NCBI RefSeq assembly: GCF_026157035.1
Contig: NZ_JANJZA010000001.1
Coordinates: 661,001 to 725,000, forward strand
Origin: Sphingomicrobium nitratireducens
GTDB taxonomy: Bacteria; Pseudomonadota; Alphaproteobacteria; Sphingomonadales; Sphingomonadaceae
Direction: 5' to 3'
DNA: 64,000 nucleotides
This document shows positions 4,123 to 63,976 of this stretch, one piece after another. Positions within the stretch are counted from its first letter, which is position 1. Every line of letters begins with the position of its first letter. The translations under genes and the position numbers were made by a program. The notes beneath the pieces are model-generated. The model had not been told where the DNA came from. It was given only the letters and a program-made list of their open reading frames with translations, and searched no databases.

Positions 4123-4560
4123 CTAGTCGTCGTCGAGCGTCGGCTCGACCGCGGCGCGCATCTCGTCGATCGCGGCCAAGAGATGCGGCATCGCCAGCGC
4201 CAGGCCCCGCGCCGAAGCGCGCAGCGTATCCTGGTTGTCGGCGAGCGCGGTGCGCATCTCGTCGGCCATGGCGGGGCCATCGACCTCGAGCCGCTCGGCG
4301 CGTTCCTCGGGGGTCGGCTCGCGGCCCTCGATGGCGGCCTCGATCTCGCCGACCGGCATCGTCTCGAGCATCTTGGCGAGCACCAGCGTCATCGCCGCCA
4401 TGCGGTCCGGGAGCGCCGGATCGGCGAGCATCGTGCCGAGCTCGTCCGACATCTCGGCCACGACTTCGTCGCGCCGGTCATCTCGTGTTTCGGCGAGCGC
4501 CGCGCCTGGCGCCATGCTCGCCATCGCCAGCACACCGGCGACCCATTTCACCCTGTCCAT
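4123..4560 (-). CDS. Small secreted protein of unknown function
   Basis: Unrecognised 145-residue protein. Residues 1-22 (MDRVKWVAGVLAMASMAPGA and following) form a signal peptide ending near ALA-E. The mature part is acidic, helix-rich and Met-rich, with an ERAERLEVDG stretch in the middle and an acidic end. The ATG at 4560 is chosen because GGAAGG sits about eight bases upstream; a TTG two codons earlier lies too close to that site. It follows two secreted DUF2059-type genes on the same strand, after a 77-base gap, and may belong to the same envelope group. Confidence 0.65.
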   Translation of the reverse strand: MDRVKWVAGVLAMASMAPGAALAETRDDRRDEVVAEMSDELGTMLADPALPDRMAAMTLVLAKMLETMPVGEIEAAIEGREPTPEERAERLEVDGPAMADEMRTALADNQDTLRASARGLALAMPHLLAAIDEMRAAVEPTLDDD

Positions 4561-4637
4561 CGACAACCTTCCCGAATCGTTGGAGAAAATCTCGGGAGCA
4601 GAGTGAAAGGGTGTGCCTTGATCGTGGCTGAACGCGT

Positions 4638-5531
4638 TCAGGCGTCGTCCTCGACGACCTCCTCTTCCTCGACCTCGTCGACGCAGATCTCGACCTCGGC
4701 CGCATCCTCGTCATCGGCCATCTCGGCGGCGTCTTCCTCGCTGACGCAATCGGGCTCGGGCTCGGGGAACATCGGCGGCAGGTGCGCCATGCGCGCCTCG
4801 AGCGTCTCGCCCATCGGCTTGATGCCCTTCACCAGCGTCGGCATCGCCTTCATCATCCCGCCGAAATATTCGGGCGCGAAGCCGACCTTCCAGATTTCGC
4901 TCGCGAACTTCTTGCCCGCGGGCGTCTTGGCGAAGGTCGCGATCGACTTCAGTTCGGCGTCGGTGAATCGTCCGGCAAAGGCACGGGCCAGCCCGTCACG
5001 CACCATCGGTTCGGCATCGGCGAGGATCGCGGGCAGCTGCTCGCGCACCACGTCGCGGAAGATTGTGACGCGCTCCTCGAAATGCGGATCCTTGCCCGCG
5101 ACGATGTCCTTAAGCGTCTTGTCGCCCATCATCGCGATCATCATGTTCGCGGTCGCTTCCATCTGCTCGGGCGTCAGCTCGGGCTTGGCCGGGCACTCCT
5201 CGCCCTCCTCGCATGTTTCCGGGCCCTCGAGCTCCTTCATCGCCTGTCCCATTTCCATAAAGCTCGCGATGATGTCCGCCGCGCCGAATTCCTCGGCAAG
5301 CTGGGCGATCGGCGTCGTCAGCATGTGGTCCGCGAAGGGCCCGACCATGTAATCGACGAAGCCGTAGGCGGTGCCCTCTGGCCACCACAGGTCGACAGCG
5401 TCATGCGCCAGCGCGAGGCGCGCATCGTCCATCGCCTGCATCTCGGTCGCTTCGCCCATGTCGGCGGCGAGCGCCGGGGTCGCCATGGTCAGGGCGAGCG
5501 CGGCGAGGCTGGTCTTGAGGATCGTCTTCAC
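4638..5531 (-). CDS. Secreted DUF2059-type protein with acidic tail
   Basis: The 297-residue protein has a clear signal peptide (MKTILKTSLAALALTMATPA, cleavage near ALA-A). The segment DGLARAFAGRFTDAELKSIA about residues 187-206, followed by FAKTPAGKKFASE, is the DUF2059 signature. DUF2059 proteins are exported and of unknown function. After the domain comes a strongly acidic C-terminal tail of about 45 residues with two cysteines and long Glu/Asp runs. Initiation is at a GTG whose bases overlap the TGA of the upstream paralogue (GTGA), which implies translational coupling. Confidence 0.8.
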   Translation of the reverse strand: MKTILKTSLAALALTMATPALAADMGEATEMQAMDDARLALAHDAVDLWWPEGTAYGFVDYMVGPFADHMLTTPIAQLAEEFGAADIIASFMEMGQAMKELEGPETCEEGEECPAKPELTPEQMEATANMMIAMMGDKTLKDIVAGKDPHFEERVTIFRDVVREQLPAILADAEPMVRDGLARAFAGRFTDAELKSIATFAKTPAGKKFASEIWKVGFAPEYFGGMMKAMPTLVKGIKPMGETLEARMAHLPPMFPEPEPDCVSEEDAAEMADDEDAAEVEICVDEVEEEEVVEDDA

Positions 5532-6226
5532 TGGTCGTTCTCCGTGTTGGGTACCGTCGGCAGGGTCTGGATGCCGCCCTCATTGCCGGGCAGCGGTAAA
5601 TGAGCGGTTTCGGCAACCAGTCTTTTCGCGACATCGGGCATGATCTGCATCAGGCGCGGCATCATCTCGCTCATCATCGCGTTCATGTAGTCGGGGTCCA
5701 TGTAGGCCAGCATCATCTTGTTGGCGAAGCGGCTGCCCATCGGCGACGTGAAGAAGTCGTGCGCGGCCTCGAGTTCCTCGACCTCGTAGTGACGCACCAG
5801 CGCGCCCGCGAAGGCCGCCTTCATGCCGGGCTCCATCTCGATCATGATCGGGCGCATCTCCTCGCCCATGATGCGCGACATGATCTGCATGCGTTCGGCG
5901 TAATGCGGGTCGACCATCTCCATGATCTCGCGCACGCTCATGCCCTCGAGCATCGCTTCCATCTCGGCCGGGTCCTCGCCCGCCGCCTCGGCGCGCGCGC
6001 GAACCATCTCGATCACCACTTCGCCGCCCGCGTCGAGCTGCGCGGCGATGATCTGGTCCATCATCTGGCCGAACATCTGGTCCATCATCTTGTCGGTCGT
6101 GCCGTCGGGCCACATCGCCTCGACCACGCCGGTGGCGAGGTCGGTCTCGCTCGGACCGGACTGCGCCAGCGTCGGCGAGGCACAGCAAAGGGCGAGCGCC
6201 GCGGCGCCCAGGCTCACAATTTTCAT
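5528..6226 (-). CDS. Secreted methionine-rich DUF2059-type protein
   Basis: The 232-residue product begins MKIVSLGAAALALCCASPTL, a signal peptide with cleavage near LAQ. I count 31 methionines (13%), many in paired runs such as KMMDQMFGQMMDQ and MNAMMSEMMPRLM. AHDFFTSPMGSRFANKMM aligns with the ELKSIATFAKTPAGKKFASE region of the next gene, so the two are divergent paralogues of the DUF2059 type. The ATG at 6226 follows GGGGGGAAAGA. The stop overlaps the next gene by four bases. Upstream at 44 bases is uppP, probably the same transcript. Function unknown; Met clusters can bind copper or act as oxidant sinks, but that is speculation. Confidence 0.75.
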   Translation of the reverse strand: MKIVSLGAAALALCCASPTLAQSGPSETDLATGVVEAMWPDGTTDKMMDQMFGQMMDQIIAAQLDAGGEVVIEMVRARAEAAGEDPAEMEAMLEGMSVREIMEMVDPHYAERMQIMSRIMGEEMRPIMIEMEPGMKAAFAGALVRHYEVEELEAAHDFFTSPMGSRFANKMMLAYMDPDYMNAMMSEMMPRLMQIMPDVAKRLVAETAHLPLPGNEGGIQTLPTVPNTENDQ

Positions 6227-30319: not shown

Positions 30320-31690
30320 CTAAAAACTTTCCTCTTCATAGATACAATCTATGGCGCTGCCCCATTTGCCGTGATAGCGCTCCAGAAGCCGGTCCGCGGG
30401 ACTTTTCCCGCTCGCCACCACGTCGCGCAGCGGATCGAGGAAGCCGACCTCGCTGTCGCCTGCCGCATTGTAGCGTTCGCGCGCCGCGAGGCCCTGCGCC
30501 GCGATATCGAGCACTTCGCCGGCGAACTCGCGCATCATGCGCCCGCCCGGCACGGCGGCGTCGAGCGCCTGGCGCGGGACAGCATGGCGCACAGCCTCGC
30601 GCTCTTCGATCGACCAGTCCTTGACGAGGTCCCACGCCGCATCGAGCGCACCCTGGTCGTAGAGCAGGCCGACCCACAACGCCGGCAGCGCGCAGATCCG
30701 GCCCCACGGTCCGCCATCGGCGCCGCGCATCTCGAGAAAGCTCTTGAGCCGCACTTCGGGGAAGATGGTCGAAAGATGATCGGTCCAGTCGGCGACCGTC
30801 GGCTTCTCGCCCTCGAAGCCTTCGAGCCTGCCGTCGAGAAAATCGCGGAAGCTCTTGCCCGCTACATCGTGATACTTGCCCTCGCGCATCACGAAATACA
30901 TCGGCACATCGAGCGCATAGTCGCACCAGCGCTCGTAACCGAACCCGTCCTCGAACACGAACGGCAGCATGCCGGTGCGGTCGGGGTCGGTGTCTTCCCA
31001 GATGTGGCTACGGAAGCTCTTGAAGCCATTGGGCTTGCCCTCGGTAAAGGGCGAATTGGCGAACAGCGCCGTCGCGACCGGCTGCAGCGCAAGCCCGACG
31101 CGAAACTTCTGCACCATGTCCGCCTCGCTCGCATAGTCGAGGTTGGTCTGGATGGTGCAGGTGCGCAGCATCATGTCGAGCCCGAGGCTGCCCACGGTCG
31201 GCATGTAGCGCCGCATGATCCCGTAGCGCCCCTTGGGCATCCAGCTGAGATCCTCGCGCTTCTTGTCGGGCCACATGCCCAGCCCGAGGAAACCGAGCCC
31301 GAGCTTTTCGCCTACCGCTTTCACCTGCTTCAGGTGCCGTGCGGCCTCGGCGCAGGTCTGGTGTAGATTGTCGAGCGCGGCGCCAGACAGTTCGAGCTGC
31401 CCTGCAGGTTCGAGGCTGACGGTCCCGTCCTCGCCGGTCAGCGCGATCAGCTTGCCGTCCTCGATCACCGGATTCCAGCCGAACTCGGTGAGCGCGGTGA
31501 GGAGGTCGCGGATCCCGCCTTCCTCCTCCCAGCTGGGCGCGCGGTGGTCGCTCACGCGATAGACGAATTTCTCGTGCTCGGTGCCGATCCGCCAGCGCTC
31601 CTCGGGCTTTTCTCCGCCCGAGAAGACGGCAAGCAGGTCGTCGCGGCTTTCGACGGTCGGGCTCTCGGAGAGATCGGTGCGCGTGGTCAT
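30320..31690 (-). CDS. gshA: Glutamate-cysteine ligase (plant/alphaproteobacterial type)
   Basis: First enzyme of glutathione synthesis. The 456-residue length is typical of the plant-like GCS2 group. Diagnostic segments: WRIGTEHEKFVY near residue 38, GTVSLEPAGQLELSGA, RTCTIQTNLDY and GSLGLDMMLR. The ATG at 31690 gives the conserved MTTRTDL-like start; upstream in-frame codons cross rsmE. It follows rsmE at 37 bases on the same strand. A glutathione-synthetase-like ATP-grasp gene at 60.9 kb is unrelated in position. Confidence 0.94.
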   Translation of the reverse strand: MTTRTDLSESPTVESRDDLLAVFSGGEKPEERWRIGTEHEKFVYRVSDHRAPSWEEEGGIRDLLTALTEFGWNPVIEDGKLIALTGEDGTVSLEPAGQLELSGAALDNLHQTCAEAARHLKQVKAVGEKLGLGFLGLGMWPDKKREDLSWMPKGRYGIMRRYMPTVGSLGLDMMLRTCTIQTNLDYASEADMVQKFRVGLALQPVATALFANSPFTEGKPNGFKSFRSHIWEDTDPDRTGMLPFVFEDGFGYERWCDYALDVPMYFVMREGKYHDVAGKSFRDFLDGRLEGFEGEKPTVADWTDHLSTIFPEVRLKSFLEMRGADGGPWGRICALPALWVGLLYDQGALDAAWDLVKDWSIEEREAVRHAVPRQALDAAVPGGRMMREFAGEVLDIAAQGLAARERYNAAGDSEVGFLDPLRDVVASGKSPADRLLERYHGKWGSAIDCIYEEESF

Positions 31691-60915: not shown

Positions 60916-61962
60916 TCAGATGATGGCGAGGTGGCGGTTGTCGAAATCGTGCGCATAGTCGCGCTTGATCGCGACCTTGCGCTCGAGTGCCTCGATGATC
61001 GGGGCTGAGAAATCCTCGCCTGCCATCTTCGAGCAAGTGACGAGGTTGCCGGGCGAGAAGACGTTCACCTCGAGGATCTTGTCGCCCACGATGTCGATCC
61101 CGACCAGGAACATGCCGTCCGCGACCAGCTTGGGACGGATGATCTCGGCGACCTTGAGTTCGGTTTCGGTGACCTGCGCCTCGACCGCCTTGCCGCCGGC
61201 GTGGATATTCGAGCGGATATCGTCCTTGGCCTGTTCGCGGCGCAGCGCGGCATACTTGCCGTTCACCTCGAGCGGATGCCCGTTCATGATAAAAAGGCGG
61301 ATGTCGCCGCGCTTGGCGGCGGGCACATATTCCTGCGCGATGACATAGCCGTCGCGCGTGATCGCCTCGATCATCTGGTTGAGGTTGGTCTTGTTGTCCT
61401 TGCCCAGTTTGAACACGCCCGACCCGCCCGATCCCTGGAGCGGCTTGAGGATGATCTCGTTCTTGTGCTTCTTGGCGAACGCCTTCACGTCGTCGGCGTG
61501 GCGGGTGATGATCGTCTCGGCGCGGACCTCGCGCGGGAAGGACTGGAAGTAGAGCTTGTTGGTCGCCCGGCTCAGGCTGTCGGGGTCGTTGATCACCAGC
61601 ACCCCGCGCTTGACGCATTCGCGTCCCCACAGGATGCCCGCCTCGGCCGCCCACGGCTTGTCCTGCACGTCGTTGGCAGGATCGTTCCTGAGCATCAGCA
61701 CATCGAGTTCGCGCACGTTGAGCATGACCCGCTTCGAGCTTTTCGAACGCAGCGTCTTGAAGAACAACGTGTGGTCCTTCGACTTGCCGGACGGCACCTG
61801 GCGCGCATGGACGCACAGGTCGTCATTGCCCTGCAGGAGGAAATCGCCCGGCGTGACGTAATAGACATCGTGCCCGCGCTGGCGCGCTTGCCAGGCGAGG
61901 AAGGTCGTTGCGTAGTTGGGATACTCGGTGGCGAGGTCGTTGACGAAGAAGGCGATGTTCAT
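60916..61962 (-). CDS. Glutathione-synthetase-like ATP-grasp ligase
   Basis: A 348-residue ATP-grasp enzyme close to GshB: MNIAFFVNDLATEYPNYATT start, VREL-DVLMLRNDP at 83-94, ATP-binding IILKPLQGSGGSGVFKL at 170-186, GDIRLFIMNG at 219-228 and the metal ligand LEVNVFSPGN at 298-307. GshB joins Gly to gamma-Glu-Cys. However, gene context is a DUF1704 peptidase and an N-formylglutamate amidohydrolase-like gene, not gshA (which is elsewhere), so the acceptor may be a peptide or protein tail. Starts ATG 61962 or GTG 61965 overlap the upstream stop, giving tight coupling. Confidence 0.85.
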   Translation of the reverse strand: MNIAFFVNDLATEYPNYATTFLAWQARQRGHDVYYVTPGDFLLQGNDDLCVHARQVPSGKSKDHTLFFKTLRSKSSKRVMLNVRELDVLMLRNDPANDVQDKPWAAEAGILWGRECVKRGVLVINDPDSLSRATNKLYFQSFPREVRAETIITRHADDVKAFAKKHKNEIILKPLQGSGGSGVFKLGKDNKTNLNQMIEAITRDGYVIAQEYVPAAKRGDIRLFIMNGHPLEVNGKYAALRREQAKDDIRSNIHAGGKAVEAQVTETELKVAEIIRPKLVADGMFLVGIDIVGDKILEVNVFSPGNLVTCSKMAGEDFSAPIIEALERKVAIKRDYAHDFDNRHLAII

Positions 61963-63188
61963 CACGCGGCACTTTCATGGTCGGGCTCGGGGCTGAGCCA
62001 CTTGTCGGGGGAGGGGTCGTCGACATAGTCGGCGATGCGGGCCTTCGCGTCCTCGCGCGAAAGGAATTCGGGGGTGAGCCGCGCGGGCACGGCGAGCCCG
62101 CGCGCTTCCAGTTCCTTGATGATCGGGACATGGACCGGGGCGATCTTGCCGACCCAGTAGGGCGACAGTTCGCCGCCATCGGCGATGTAATCCATCACCC
62201 GGAAAAAGCCGCGCAGGTAGATCGCGTCCTTGGCGAATCCGCCGCCGCGATGGACGCGCGCGCAGATCTTGAAGGCGGTGCGCTGCCCGACCCCGCAATG
62301 GTGGACGAGTTCGCGGTGGCATTCGGTGAAGTCGGCGCCCTCGAGCATGCAGTGGACCGACACCACCCGCGCCGCGATCAGCCGCAAGCGGCTGGCGTAG
62401 AGGCCGCCTACCGCCCACTCCGCGAACACGCCGAGCCCTTCCTGGATTTCCTCGTAACCCGCCAGCCCCGAGGCGAATAGCGACAGCGGCTGGTGCGCGC
62501 CGTTGAAGCCGGTCACCATGTGGATCGAGAGTTCGTGGCTCAAGAGCGGGTCGACTCGCCGCACGCTGACCGAGGCGCCCGCATCGATCATCAGCTTGGG
62601 GTAGCTCACCAGCAGTCCGGTCACGTCGTCGCGAATCTCGATGACGGGCGCGAACTCGGCATCTTCCTCGCGATAGGTCTCGACCAGCATCGCGGCATGT
62701 TCGCGAAGCTCCTCGGCGCCCACGCGCTGGACCCTGCACGGCGCATACTTGACCCTCTCGAGGATCGCCCGTGCCGCCTCGAGCAGCGGCTCGGACACCG
62801 CGCCGTAAAGCTCTTCGGAGGTCGCGCGGAACTCGCTTGTGCAGCGCTGCTCGATCAGCTCGAGCTGCTTGTCGAGTTCGCGCCGCTTTTCGAGCAGCAG
62901 TCCTTCGACCAGCGGTTCGTGCAGGTGGGTGAGCTCGATTTGGTGCAGTTCCTTGCGCAGCGAGGAGACGTCGAACCCGACGTCGCGGTAGAGGAAGTCG
63001 GGTGTCCCGTCCGCCCCGCCGTCGAGCCAGCGGTGCATCGCTTCCTGGGTGTTCACGGGGGAAACGCTCAGCAGATAGTCGAACCGGTCCGCGACCCCGG
63101 CCAGCGCACGGTCTGCCATGTCGCACGCCTGCGCGAGGTCGCCATGCTCGAGCGCCAGGTCGAGCGGGTCGGCGGTCGCGTGGCTCAT
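61962..63188 (-). CDS. DUF1704 metallopeptidase (QEGLA-motif, MATCAP-like)
   Basis: 408 residues. The HExxxH zinc motif is HELSIH at 218-223; YEEIQEGLGVFAEW at 245-258 contains the family QEGL motif, Glu250 being the likely third ligand; FNGAHQPLSLFASGLAG links them. This is DUF1704 (TIGR02421), also labelled flavohemoglobin expression-modulating QEGLA motif protein. Eukaryotic relatives (MATCAP, KIAA0895-like) are tubulin tyrosine carboxypeptidases. Its start overlaps the upstream gene's stop by four bases (ATGA), and its stop overlaps the next start. Activity in bacteria is not established here. Confidence 0.9.
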   Translation of the reverse strand: MSHATADPLDLALEHGDLAQACDMADRALAGVADRFDYLLSVSPVNTQEAMHRWLDGGADGTPDFLYRDVGFDVSSLRKELHQIELTHLHEPLVEGLLLEKRRELDKQLELIEQRCTSEFRATSEELYGAVSEPLLEAARAILERVKYAPCRVQRVGAEELREHAAMLVETYREEDAEFAPVIEIRDDVTGLLVSYPKLMIDAGASVSVRRVDPLLSHELSIHMVTGFNGAHQPLSLFASGLAGYEEIQEGLGVFAEWAVGGLYASRLRLIAARVVSVHCMLEGADFTECHRELVHHCGVGQRTAFKICARVHRGGGFAKDAIYLRGFFRVMDYIADGGELSPYWVGKIAPVHVPIIKELEARGLAVPARLTPEFLSREDAKARIADYVDDPSPDKWLSPEPDHESAA

Positions 63189-63976
63189 CGCTCGAGCAAG
63201 TCGCGAGCCTTGTCGGCGACGCGGTCGATCAGCCGGCGCATCGCCTTGACCATTTCGGGATCGGACTGGCCGGTCCACTCGTCCATGTAGATCTTCTTGA
63301 ACTCGAACGCGATCGCGCAGCCGACCCCAGGATGCCGCTCGTGGACGAAGCGCGTCTGCTCGCCTTTGCCTTGGAAGGCGACATTCTCGCGCACGTCGAG
63401 CCTGCGCCCGAAGAAGTCGAATGCCGCAATCTCGTCGATCAGCGGATCGAGCAGCCACGCCCATTCCTCGCGCGGCATCGAAAAGGTGCCGATGTTGATG
63501 TCGGGCGCCTCCTCCTGCGGGGTAGGGGGCGCGTCGGGTCCTTCGCGGCGGTGGTTGTAGCTGTGGACGTCGAGCAACACGAACTTGCCGTGCCGCGCCG
63601 CGACCATGTCGGTCAGCCGGCCGAGCTCGTCGTAATAGGCATCGTGGATGGCGAGGCTGCGTTCGACCAGTTCGTCGCCGGGATCGCCGCCCCATACGTC
63701 GAGGCCCCACGCCATGTCGGGAGTCCGATAGACCGCCTTGTCGCGCGGCCGGTTGAGATCGACCTCGAAGCGCGACCGGTCGGCGATGCGATAGGTCGGC
63801 TGGCCCGCGACCGCGTGACCCGTGAACGGGTCTTCCTCGCGCAGTCGGTCTTCCTCCGACAGGATCATCGCTCGCTCGACCTCGGCGCGCAGCGCGTGGC
63901 CGTCGTGGATGGCGGTAGCGATGATCGGTCCCGGACCGGTCTTGCCGTGCCACCAGCTGGAGAATTGGGCGCCCAT
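63185..63976 (-). CDS. N-formylglutamate amidohydrolase-like enzyme
   Basis: 263 residues of the HutG2/NFGAH zinc hydrolase family. IIATAIHDGHALR near residue 18, EVDLNRPRDKAVYRTPDMAW and VLLDVHSYNHRR are the substrate and metal segments. NFGAH hydrolyses N-formyl-Glu to Glu in histidine degradation, but no other hut gene is here; together with a DUF1704 peptidase and an ATP-grasp ligase the substrate is probably different. The ATG at 63976 has no strong ribosome site, and the frame remains open to the window edge, so the start may lie further upstream. Confidence 0.8.
   Translation of the reverse strand: MGAQFSSWWHGKTGPGPIIATAIHDGHALRAEVERAMILSEEDRLREEDPFTGHAVAGQPTYRIADRSRFEVDLNRPRDKAVYRTPDMAWGLDVWGGDPGDELVERSLAIHDAYYDELGRLTDMVAARHGKFVLLDVHSYNHRREGPDAPPTPQEEAPDINIGTFSMPREEWAWLLDPLIDEIAAFDFFGRRLDVRENVAFQGKGEQTRFVHERHPGVGCAIAFEFKKIYMDEWTGQSDPEMVKAMRRLIDRVADKARDLLER

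Follow-up and report, generated by a model that had tools for sequence, protein, structure and literature searches.

The pairing of an ATP-grasp ligase with a peptidase is already known as a general kind of gene association. Amidoligase–peptidase neighbourhoods of this general kind were reportedly compiled by Iyer et al. in 2009, and that list may well include the unit described below. In eukaryotes, MATCAP/TMCP removes C-terminal residues of tubulin, and its EEG motif has been assigned a third-ligand role (PMC10499314). In the rlo operon, loss of secreted proteases harms cells in hypo-osmotic stress, and loss of the ATP-grasp gene rescues the defects (PMC12239564). Here, we analyze three consecutive genes near the end of a 64,000-nucleotide stretch of the Sphingomicrobium nitratireducens genome (contig NZ_JANJZA010000001.1, positions 661,001 to 725,000; henceforth the window). 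They encode a hydrolase resembling N-formylglutamate amidohydrolase (NFGAH), a metallopeptidase of the MATCAP/DUF1704 family and an ATP-grasp ligase resembling the glutathione synthase GshB, abbreviated NFG, MAT and LIG.

The three gene families are known as well. What the analysis adds is a two-way linkage between ligase and peptidase, a fusion of NFG with MAT, an apparently dead NFGAH-like domain in long MAT proteins and an annotation trap around the name GshB, earlier mention of any of these being possible. Literature searches, with most subscription papers outside reach and the possibility that Iyer et al. list the trio, retrieved no paper on the trio as such.

A three-gene unit recurring in diverged genomes

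The trio is a real and widespread unit. Genomes that have diverged from one another share its gene order, the overlaps and the families involved, to an extent that is more than chance. The peptidase family as such is patchily distributed. PF08014 was surveyed in 240 genomes of the class, 249 of the family and 398 of the phylum, the own genome being counted in each set, and was present in 7, 19 and 47 of them, respectively. Neighbourhoods were taken from a survey of the genome_contigs set in which the best 80 of at least 569 loci of MAT relatives were kept; because these are the nearest relatives, the figures describe the trio type and not MATCAP proteins at large. LIG is found in all 80 loci and NFG in 72, twice as a contig-end fragment. 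Besides the own locus, LIG adjoins MAT in 18/18 loci of the family and NFG is present in 17/18, in the order NFG-MAT-LIG. One family relative (L043) carries an aminotransferase-like gene (4436-5851) at the usual place of NFG, right before MAT and LIG, which is possibly a substitute for the first enzyme. Two of the six class loci (L056 and L057) hold the trio; the other four encode a MATCAP protein of another branch, without partners. The trio is thus conserved among relatives, and the loss of neighbourhood that the original prediction had named as one half of what would speak against it was not found.

The linkage also holds in the reverse direction. Scores above the cut-off of NF009110, the subfamily model to which LIG belongs, occur at 16 places in 14 of the 398 phylum genomes, and at 15 of these places a PF08014 gene lies next to the ligase in the same orientation; the sixteenth (genome G581) starts 48 bases from the beginning of a contig. 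Scores fall from 436 bits for the lowest member to 241 bits, a gap that sets the subfamily sharply apart in this sample. A member of the LIG subfamily without MAT was not seen among the 398 phylum genomes, the sole unpaired place lying at a contig edge. For the peptidase, neighbourhoods were taken at 36 of the 53 PF08014 places, yielding eight units with separate genes (type I), six in which NFG and MAT are fused (type II) and 22 places with neither partner beside MAT.

Translation of the three genes as a set had been proposed from their overlaps by a few bases. The overlaps are present in the window (Table 1) and recur elsewhere, which, together with conservation of the trio, supports the three genes as a set. 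The 80 loci contain 68 NFG-MAT pairs on one strand; for 56 of these, the NFG stop shares the bases NTGA with a MAT-frame start codon, a count that is independent of start choice. A looser tally of gaps (61/68 and 17/17) partly reflects the chosen starts; owing to length and score limits it missed L086 and L125, though both are present in the 80-locus survey. What looked in relatives like an additional gene separating NFG from MAT proved to be the 5′ portion of an extended MAT gene. Apart from the trio and apparent antisense shadow frames, no cluster of open reading frames (ORFs) of at least 90 aa exceeded 18 of 100 loci, so that a fourth conserved gene was not detected; the top cluster, at 18/100, consists of ABC-type ATPases.

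Several variants of the arrangement were observed. At L109, LIG lies about 2.6 kb upstream of MAT on the opposite strand, and in three actinobacterial metagenome-assembled genomes (MAGs; L091, L124 and L137) an NFG/LIG pair is oriented against MAT, with the three genes still together. Two Planctomycetota MAGs contain tandem arrays, NFG-MAT-LIG-LIG-MAT-LIG at L113:4347-12287 and MAT-LIG-LIG-MAT-LIG at L133. Genome G585, a MAG of 90% completeness and 3% contamination, encodes three trio-type ligases with MAT on three separate contigs. In a family relative (L052; G248:C2:72069-84815) the trio is decayed in several frames, and the unit can thus be lost.

MAT and LIG occur together in Proteobacteria and also in genomes or MAGs labelled Acidobacteriota, Gemmatimonadetes, Planctomycetota, Bacteroidota members and Actinomycetes. 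Among 119 plasmid records matching MAT, 79 are from Sinorhizobium. All three genes are carried on pSymB of Sinorhizobium meliloti 2011 and R14 (NFG confirmed at L237 and L238), and in Mesorhizobium sp. AR07 the trio is annotated as N-formylglutamate amidohydrolase, QEGLA protein and glutathione synthetase. On pSMED01 of Sinorhizobium medicae WSM419 (L235:1413-4320), the NFG match before MAT is in two pieces about 2 kb apart, as if interrupted. The sole matching phage record, Pseudomonas phage Y1 (OQ572403.1:63521-64531, flagged UNVERIFIED), encodes a MATCAP homologue with 25.8% identity over 75% of the query.

Table 1. The trio in the window and the motifs of its products (positions in the window).
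Feature	Position	Strand	Basis and remarks
NFG, NFGAH-like zinc amidohydrolase gene	63185..63976	-	ORF, ATG, 263 aa; PF05013 FGase
MAT, MATCAP/DUF1704 (QEGLA) metallopeptidase gene, short form	61962..63188	-	ORF, ATG, 408 aa; PF08014
LIG, GshB-like ATP-grasp ligase gene	60916..61962	-	ATG, 348 aa; PF02955; alternative GTG at 61965, 349 aa
NFG/MAT stop-start overlap ATGA, 4 bases	63185..63188	-	Sequence
MAT stop/LIG start overlap GTGATG	61962..61965	-	Sequence; 1 base with ATG (TGATG), 4 with GTG
HExxxH zinc motif HELSIH, MAT residues 218-223	62520..62537	-	H, E and H invariant in two alignments
QEG motif, MAT residues 249-251, presumed third metal ligand E250	62436..62444	-	Invariant; aligns with the MATCAP EGLA stretch
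NFG motif SRFEVDLNR	63749..63775	-	S, R, F, D, N and R identical throughout 41 sequences
NFG motif DVHS, its histidine a presumed zinc ligand	63560..63571	-	D136 and H138 identical throughout 41 sequences
NFG motif EFKK, its glutamate presumed to be catalytic	63293..63304	-	E225, K227 and K228 invariant; ExKK in 93/93 stand-alone NFG

The genome holding the trio measures 2.27 Mb. The unit is flanked by a divergent gene upstream and another gene downstream, both judged by appearance to encode exported proteins and seemingly unrelated to it. Recent horizontal transfer was considered and rejected: the GC content of the trio (0.653, against 0.664 for the window) is ordinary, as is that at third codon positions (GC3, 0.863-0.891, against a mean of 0.856 and a standard deviation of 0.053 in the 32 of 53 long window ORFs that pass the GC3 filter). 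At L002:14232-19461, upstream of the window's end, four successive paralogous membrane protein genes (415-430 aa) lie on one strand; their products are presumably DUF418-like.

Hydrolase, peptidase and their fusion

All three proteins score above the Pfam gathering cut-offs of their families, with 79 bits for NFG (FGase; cut-off 28.9), 254 for MAT (MATCAP; 27) and 174 for LIG (GSH-S_ATP; 23). The AlphaFold model of NFG (mean predicted local distance difference test, pLDDT, 94.8) best matches the N-formylglutamate amidohydrolase 2q7s (E 5.6e-11, TM-score 0.73), followed by Atu2144 and then, weakly, by poly-gamma-glutamate hydrolase and M14 carboxypeptidases. Both gathering score and fold therefore place NFG in PF05013, but against the HutG equivalog TIGR02017 it reaches only 20.9 bits, far under the cut-off of 278.75. 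The SRFEVDLNR motif we take to be a carboxylate clamp of the M14/aspartoacylase type. A second gene of the FGase family lies elsewhere in the own genome (C1:1884006).

MAT belongs to PF08014 by score and by its HELSIH and QEG motifs, the former being the HExxxH zinc site that the original prediction had pointed out. HE...H is kept in 121/121 and QEG in 120/121 extracted MAT proteins or pieces. Homology of the middle gene to the tubulin carboxypeptidases, likewise claimed from the sequence, is borne out by a profile of the long-form MAT family, which matches solved human MATCAP (7z5g/7z6s, best E 3.6e-13); with the window MAT sequence alone, no PDB relative was found at E up to 1. On TIGR02421, the QEGLA family named 'flavohemoglobin expression-modulating', the window protein scores 298.3, below the cut-off of 338.65, and a long form from the same genus passes with 353.

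In type II units (L173, L176-L179 and L183), found in some gammaproteobacteria, LIG is followed by a single NFG-MAT fusion of 660-675 aa; Photobacterium sp. DA100 (L239) has such a unit as well. The five NFG motifs are complete in five of the six fusions. MAT of type I units, on the other hand, is mostly about 610-680 aa long and bears an N-terminal domain of about 235 residues, for which no Pfam match was obtained with the two sequences run as separate domains. By hhalign, this domain resembles the six fused NFG with a probability of 97.7% over 221 columns and stand-alone NFG with one of 94.4% over 142 columns. It largely lacks the NFG motifs: among 92 such domains, EEDP and SRxExDLNR occur in none, ExKK in one, DxH[ST] in two and the short pattern HxG in 31, compared with 93, 68, 93, 91 and 93, respectively, of 93 stand-alone NFG. 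The N-terminal domain of long MAT proteins thus looks like a dead NFGAH-like domain, as judged from these alignments. A model of the long form L035 (pLDDT 93.3) has MATCAP 7z6s as its top PDB match (E 1.6e-7, 17% identity), and NFGAH 2q7s stands at rank 15 (E 0.028) amid other hydrolase and phosphorylase folds with similar scores, so that structure alone does not single out NFGAH.

This domain is missing from the window MAT, which is a short form. When the proteins were placed in a FastTree tree with midpoint rooting, it formed a clade with the short forms L040 and L059 beside the long L035, L060 and L062, and the short forms L041-L051 form a separate clade elsewhere. If the long form is older, two such clades imply at least two losses of the N-terminal domain; L121 and L186 seem short only through contig edges. 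The simplest history, the order of which we infer, would start from a fused NFG-MAT ancestor, pass through an active separate NFG with a decaying fused copy in MAT and end with loss of the dead copy.

Relation of the ligase to glutathione synthase

The window LIG is a member of NF009110/PRK12458, with 440.8 bits against a cut-off of 408; relatives that also carry this trio fall short of it, at 394 and 403. A LIG profile matches E. coli GshB (1gsa) with an E value of 8.9e-63, but the window protein stays below the GshB equivalogs NF003573 (222 against 272) and TIGR01380 (199.3 against 299.05). Against the RimK model NF007764 it scores 39.9 (cut-off 331), and the TTL (tubulin tyrosine ligase) family of Pfam is not among its six family matches at E up to 0.001. 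The own genome also encodes a canonical GshB (437 bits; cut-off 272) and a separate RimK (444.8 bits; cut-off 331). The ligase had been described as far from gshA, and indeed the single 'GCS2 (gshA-type)' match in the own genome (C1:691614-692528, window 30614-31528) lies about 30 kb from the trio. LIG is consequently neither the only nor the canonical glutathione synthase of its own cell.

For a residue comparison, 37 type I and five type II ligases were aligned with 29 canonical GshB proteins (28 from trio genomes and that of E. coli, whose numbering is used). The ATP-side and arginine positions K125, K160, R86, R210, R225, R233, N235, D273, E281 and N283 are kept in 42/42 ligases. By contrast, D9, E124, T285 and T288, present in 29/29 canonical proteins, are replaced in 84-100% of the type I rows, and the position of T288 is G in all 42 ligases. 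D19, S20 and F91 are lost in most type I rows. Type II ligases retain more of the canonical residues, among them D19 and, in three of five, S20. The roles given to the ATP-side and arginine residues are partly presumed, as are the positions that contact the acceptor.

Of 32 trio genomes, 28 encode a canonical GshB of at least 398 bits in addition to LIG; the 32 include the NFG-less G398 and the decayed unit of G248 and leave out G640 (LIG beside MAT) and G581. Glutathione synthesis as the main role of LIG is weakened by this separate enzyme, but may still apply in the other four genomes. A search for the eukaryote-type glutathione synthase PF03917 gave 0/5, a zero that carries no weight because the control had no match anywhere either. 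Despite the usual gene label, the trio probably serves something other than ordinary glutathione synthesis.

The label is a particular trap for type II ligases. Five of the six score 276-281 bits, just above the curated glutathione synthase cut-off of 272, and would be named accordingly, so that reports of 'GshB' induction may concern the trio system. COG3930 we take to be the family of MAT, and PA3697 is presumably the QEGLA protein behind the name 'flavohemoglobin expression-modulating'. For Photobacterium damselae, a low-salt RNA-seq table gives a 38-fold change for 'GshB' RS17020 and a 27-fold change for RS17025, the QEGLA gene numbered next; its authors count RS17020 with the leading functions that increase at low salt and treat it as glutathione synthetase (PMC10308900). 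Judging by the gene numbers and by Photobacterium sp. DA100, these two genes may be a type II unit, and this strong induction may then concern the trio rather than glutathione. In a Vibrio vulnificus gene list, the COG3930 protein VV2_1203 adjoins 'glutathione synthetase' VV2_1204 (PMC3091676), and for Pseudomonas aeruginosa a list of genes co-regulated by PA3697 contains fhp (PMC8070244).

A candidate writer-eraser module and its relatives

We put at an even chance the reading that the trio is a self-contained module making and unmaking one amide bond on a peptide-like molecule. LIG, as a GshB derivative, would use ATP to activate a carboxylate on a peptide-like acceptor, to which it would couple an amino acid or another amine. 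MAT, as a metallocarboxypeptidase of the MATCAP type, would take the C-terminal residue off again, and NFG, an M14-like N-acyl-amino-acid amidohydrolase beside MAT, would hydrolyse whatever acyl or aminoacyl amino acid is set free or supplied. We consider a small peptide or metabolite the likeliest acceptor and a protein C-terminus a less likely one; where canonical GshB is present, the acceptor is probably other than gamma-glutamylcysteine. MAT without LIG is common and LIG without MAT was unseen in the 398 genomes, an asymmetry that one would expect of a ligase whose product needs to be reversed. Together with the NFG-MAT fusion, this fits a writer whose product is undone by a linked eraser. 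From these patterns we infer the writer-eraser relation of LIG and MAT and a physical contact between NFG and MAT. A bolder version is possible though doubtful: a widespread writer-eraser for carboxyl-terminal amide modification, built from a repurposed glutathione synthase and a bacterial relative of the tubulin detyrosinase, in which an NFGAH-like enzyme accompanies the eraser as a joined partner and its dead copy in long erasers serves as a docking or regulatory domain.

Several observations weigh against such a module. NFG is absent at 8 of the 80 loci, and only three of these (L086, L121 and L133) are near contig starts, unlike L096, L104, L106, L131 and L135; taken with the aminotransferase-like gene of L043, this suggests that NFG is not strictly needed. 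The fusion of Vibrio sp. HDW18 (L240) is without LIG in the stretch examined, and that of L173 has lost four of the five NFG motifs. Four of the 32 trio genomes (G490, G515, G565 and G585) have no canonical GshB over the cut-off yet possess a GCS2 gene, and in these LIG could be a source of glutathione or of a near analogue. The catalytic directions are deduced from homology, and the three enzymes could also form a one-way biosynthetic path.

That path, in which LIG joins, MAT trims the C-terminus and NFG removes an N-acyl group from a small peptide metabolite without any cycle, strikes us as the most serious competitor, if a doubtful one. GshB-like ATP-grasp ligases do make small peptides, the unit is compact and has no widely conserved fourth gene, and the extra LIG and MAT copies in the tandem arrays of L113 and L133 would fit more than one ligation step. 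Moreover, no small precursor ORF within 1 kb is kept beyond close relatives. However, no transporter, regulator or tailoring gene is widely conserved with the trio, and the synthase family of the osmolyte N-acetylglutaminylglutamine (TIGR03103) exceeds its cut-off in only 3 of the 21 trio genomes (of the 32) taken for that test, so that this compound was rejected as the common product. A graspetide or other cluster for ribosomally synthesized and post-translationally modified peptides was likewise rejected, as no cluster of small ORFs (20-120 aa, 1 kb on each side) occurs in more than 5 of 120 loci.

A bacterial cycle resembling tubulin tyrosination but acting on protein C-termini, with NFG clearing the product, would be a special case of the writer-eraser module, and we regard it as unlikely. 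The original prediction had drawn this analogy, and its peptidase half stands: MAT is homologous by profile match to MATCAP/TMCP, which removes tubulin C-terminal residues (PMC10499314), and RimK-RimB and the rlo operon provide precedents of ATP-grasp enzymes paired with proteases (PMC12239564). The ligase half does not, as LIG is nearest to GshB, is remote from the RimK model and matches no TTL family. Furthermore, there is no known protein target, nothing found favours a protein over a small peptide, and a GshB-type enzyme would be expected to prefer small acceptors.

It is slightly less likely still that LIG is a spare synthase of glutathione or an analogue, with NFG and MAT turning over glutathione or gamma-glutamyl peptides. 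NCBI names NF009110 'glutathione synthetase', and PRK12458 served as the GshB search model in a 2012 survey of glutathione in lactic acid bacteria (PMC3462692). The ATP-side residues of GshB are retained, LIG is the sole GshB-like enzyme above 200 bits in the four genomes named above, beside their GCS2 gene, and most type II ligases pass the canonical cut-off. These points are outweighed by the separate canonical GshB of most trio genomes, the own one included, by the replacement of canonical-invariant residues and by the distance to GCS2 in the own genome; besides, such a role leaves the linkage to MAT unexplained. A chance neighbourhood with no joint function, to which the patchy occurrence of PF08014 in family and class might lend itself, can be dismissed in view of the conserved order with overlaps, the two-way linkage and the gene fusion.

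Through this analysis, three genes that had been labelled only vaguely (as N-formylglutamate amidohydrolase, 'flavohemoglobin expression-modulating' protein and glutathione synthetase) become one testable system, and one branch of bacterial MATCAP homologues gains a likely working context. Compared with GshB (1gsa), LIG is alike in fold, sequence family and the retained ATP-side and arginine residues, but it falls below the equivalog cut-offs, has invariant residues replaced, is linked to MATCAP and coexists with a canonical GshB in its genome. It is a member of PRK12458/NF009110, a subfamily whose name is, as far as found, only a label. NFG shares fold and Pfam family with NFGAH (2q7s; PF05013; HutG), but stands far under the HutG cut-off and overlaps or is fused with MAT. 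With MATCAP/TMCP (KIAA0895L; PF08014), MAT has in common the homologous domain, the HExxxH site and the third-ligand glutamate motif; in contrast to it, MAT is bacterial, has a GshB-like ligase and also an NFGAH-like enzyme as partners and occurs in long forms with an apparently dead NFGAH-like domain. The RimABK and rlo systems follow the same logic of an ATP-grasp enzyme and a peptidase, with a hypo-osmotic link as well, whereas the trio ligase belongs to another branch, the protease families are unrelated (theirs being retropepsin-like) and the trio has no membrane partner. In the tubulin tyrosination cycle of TTL and MATCAP/VASH, finally, the carboxypeptidase half is homologous to that of the trio, while the trio ligase is not TTL.

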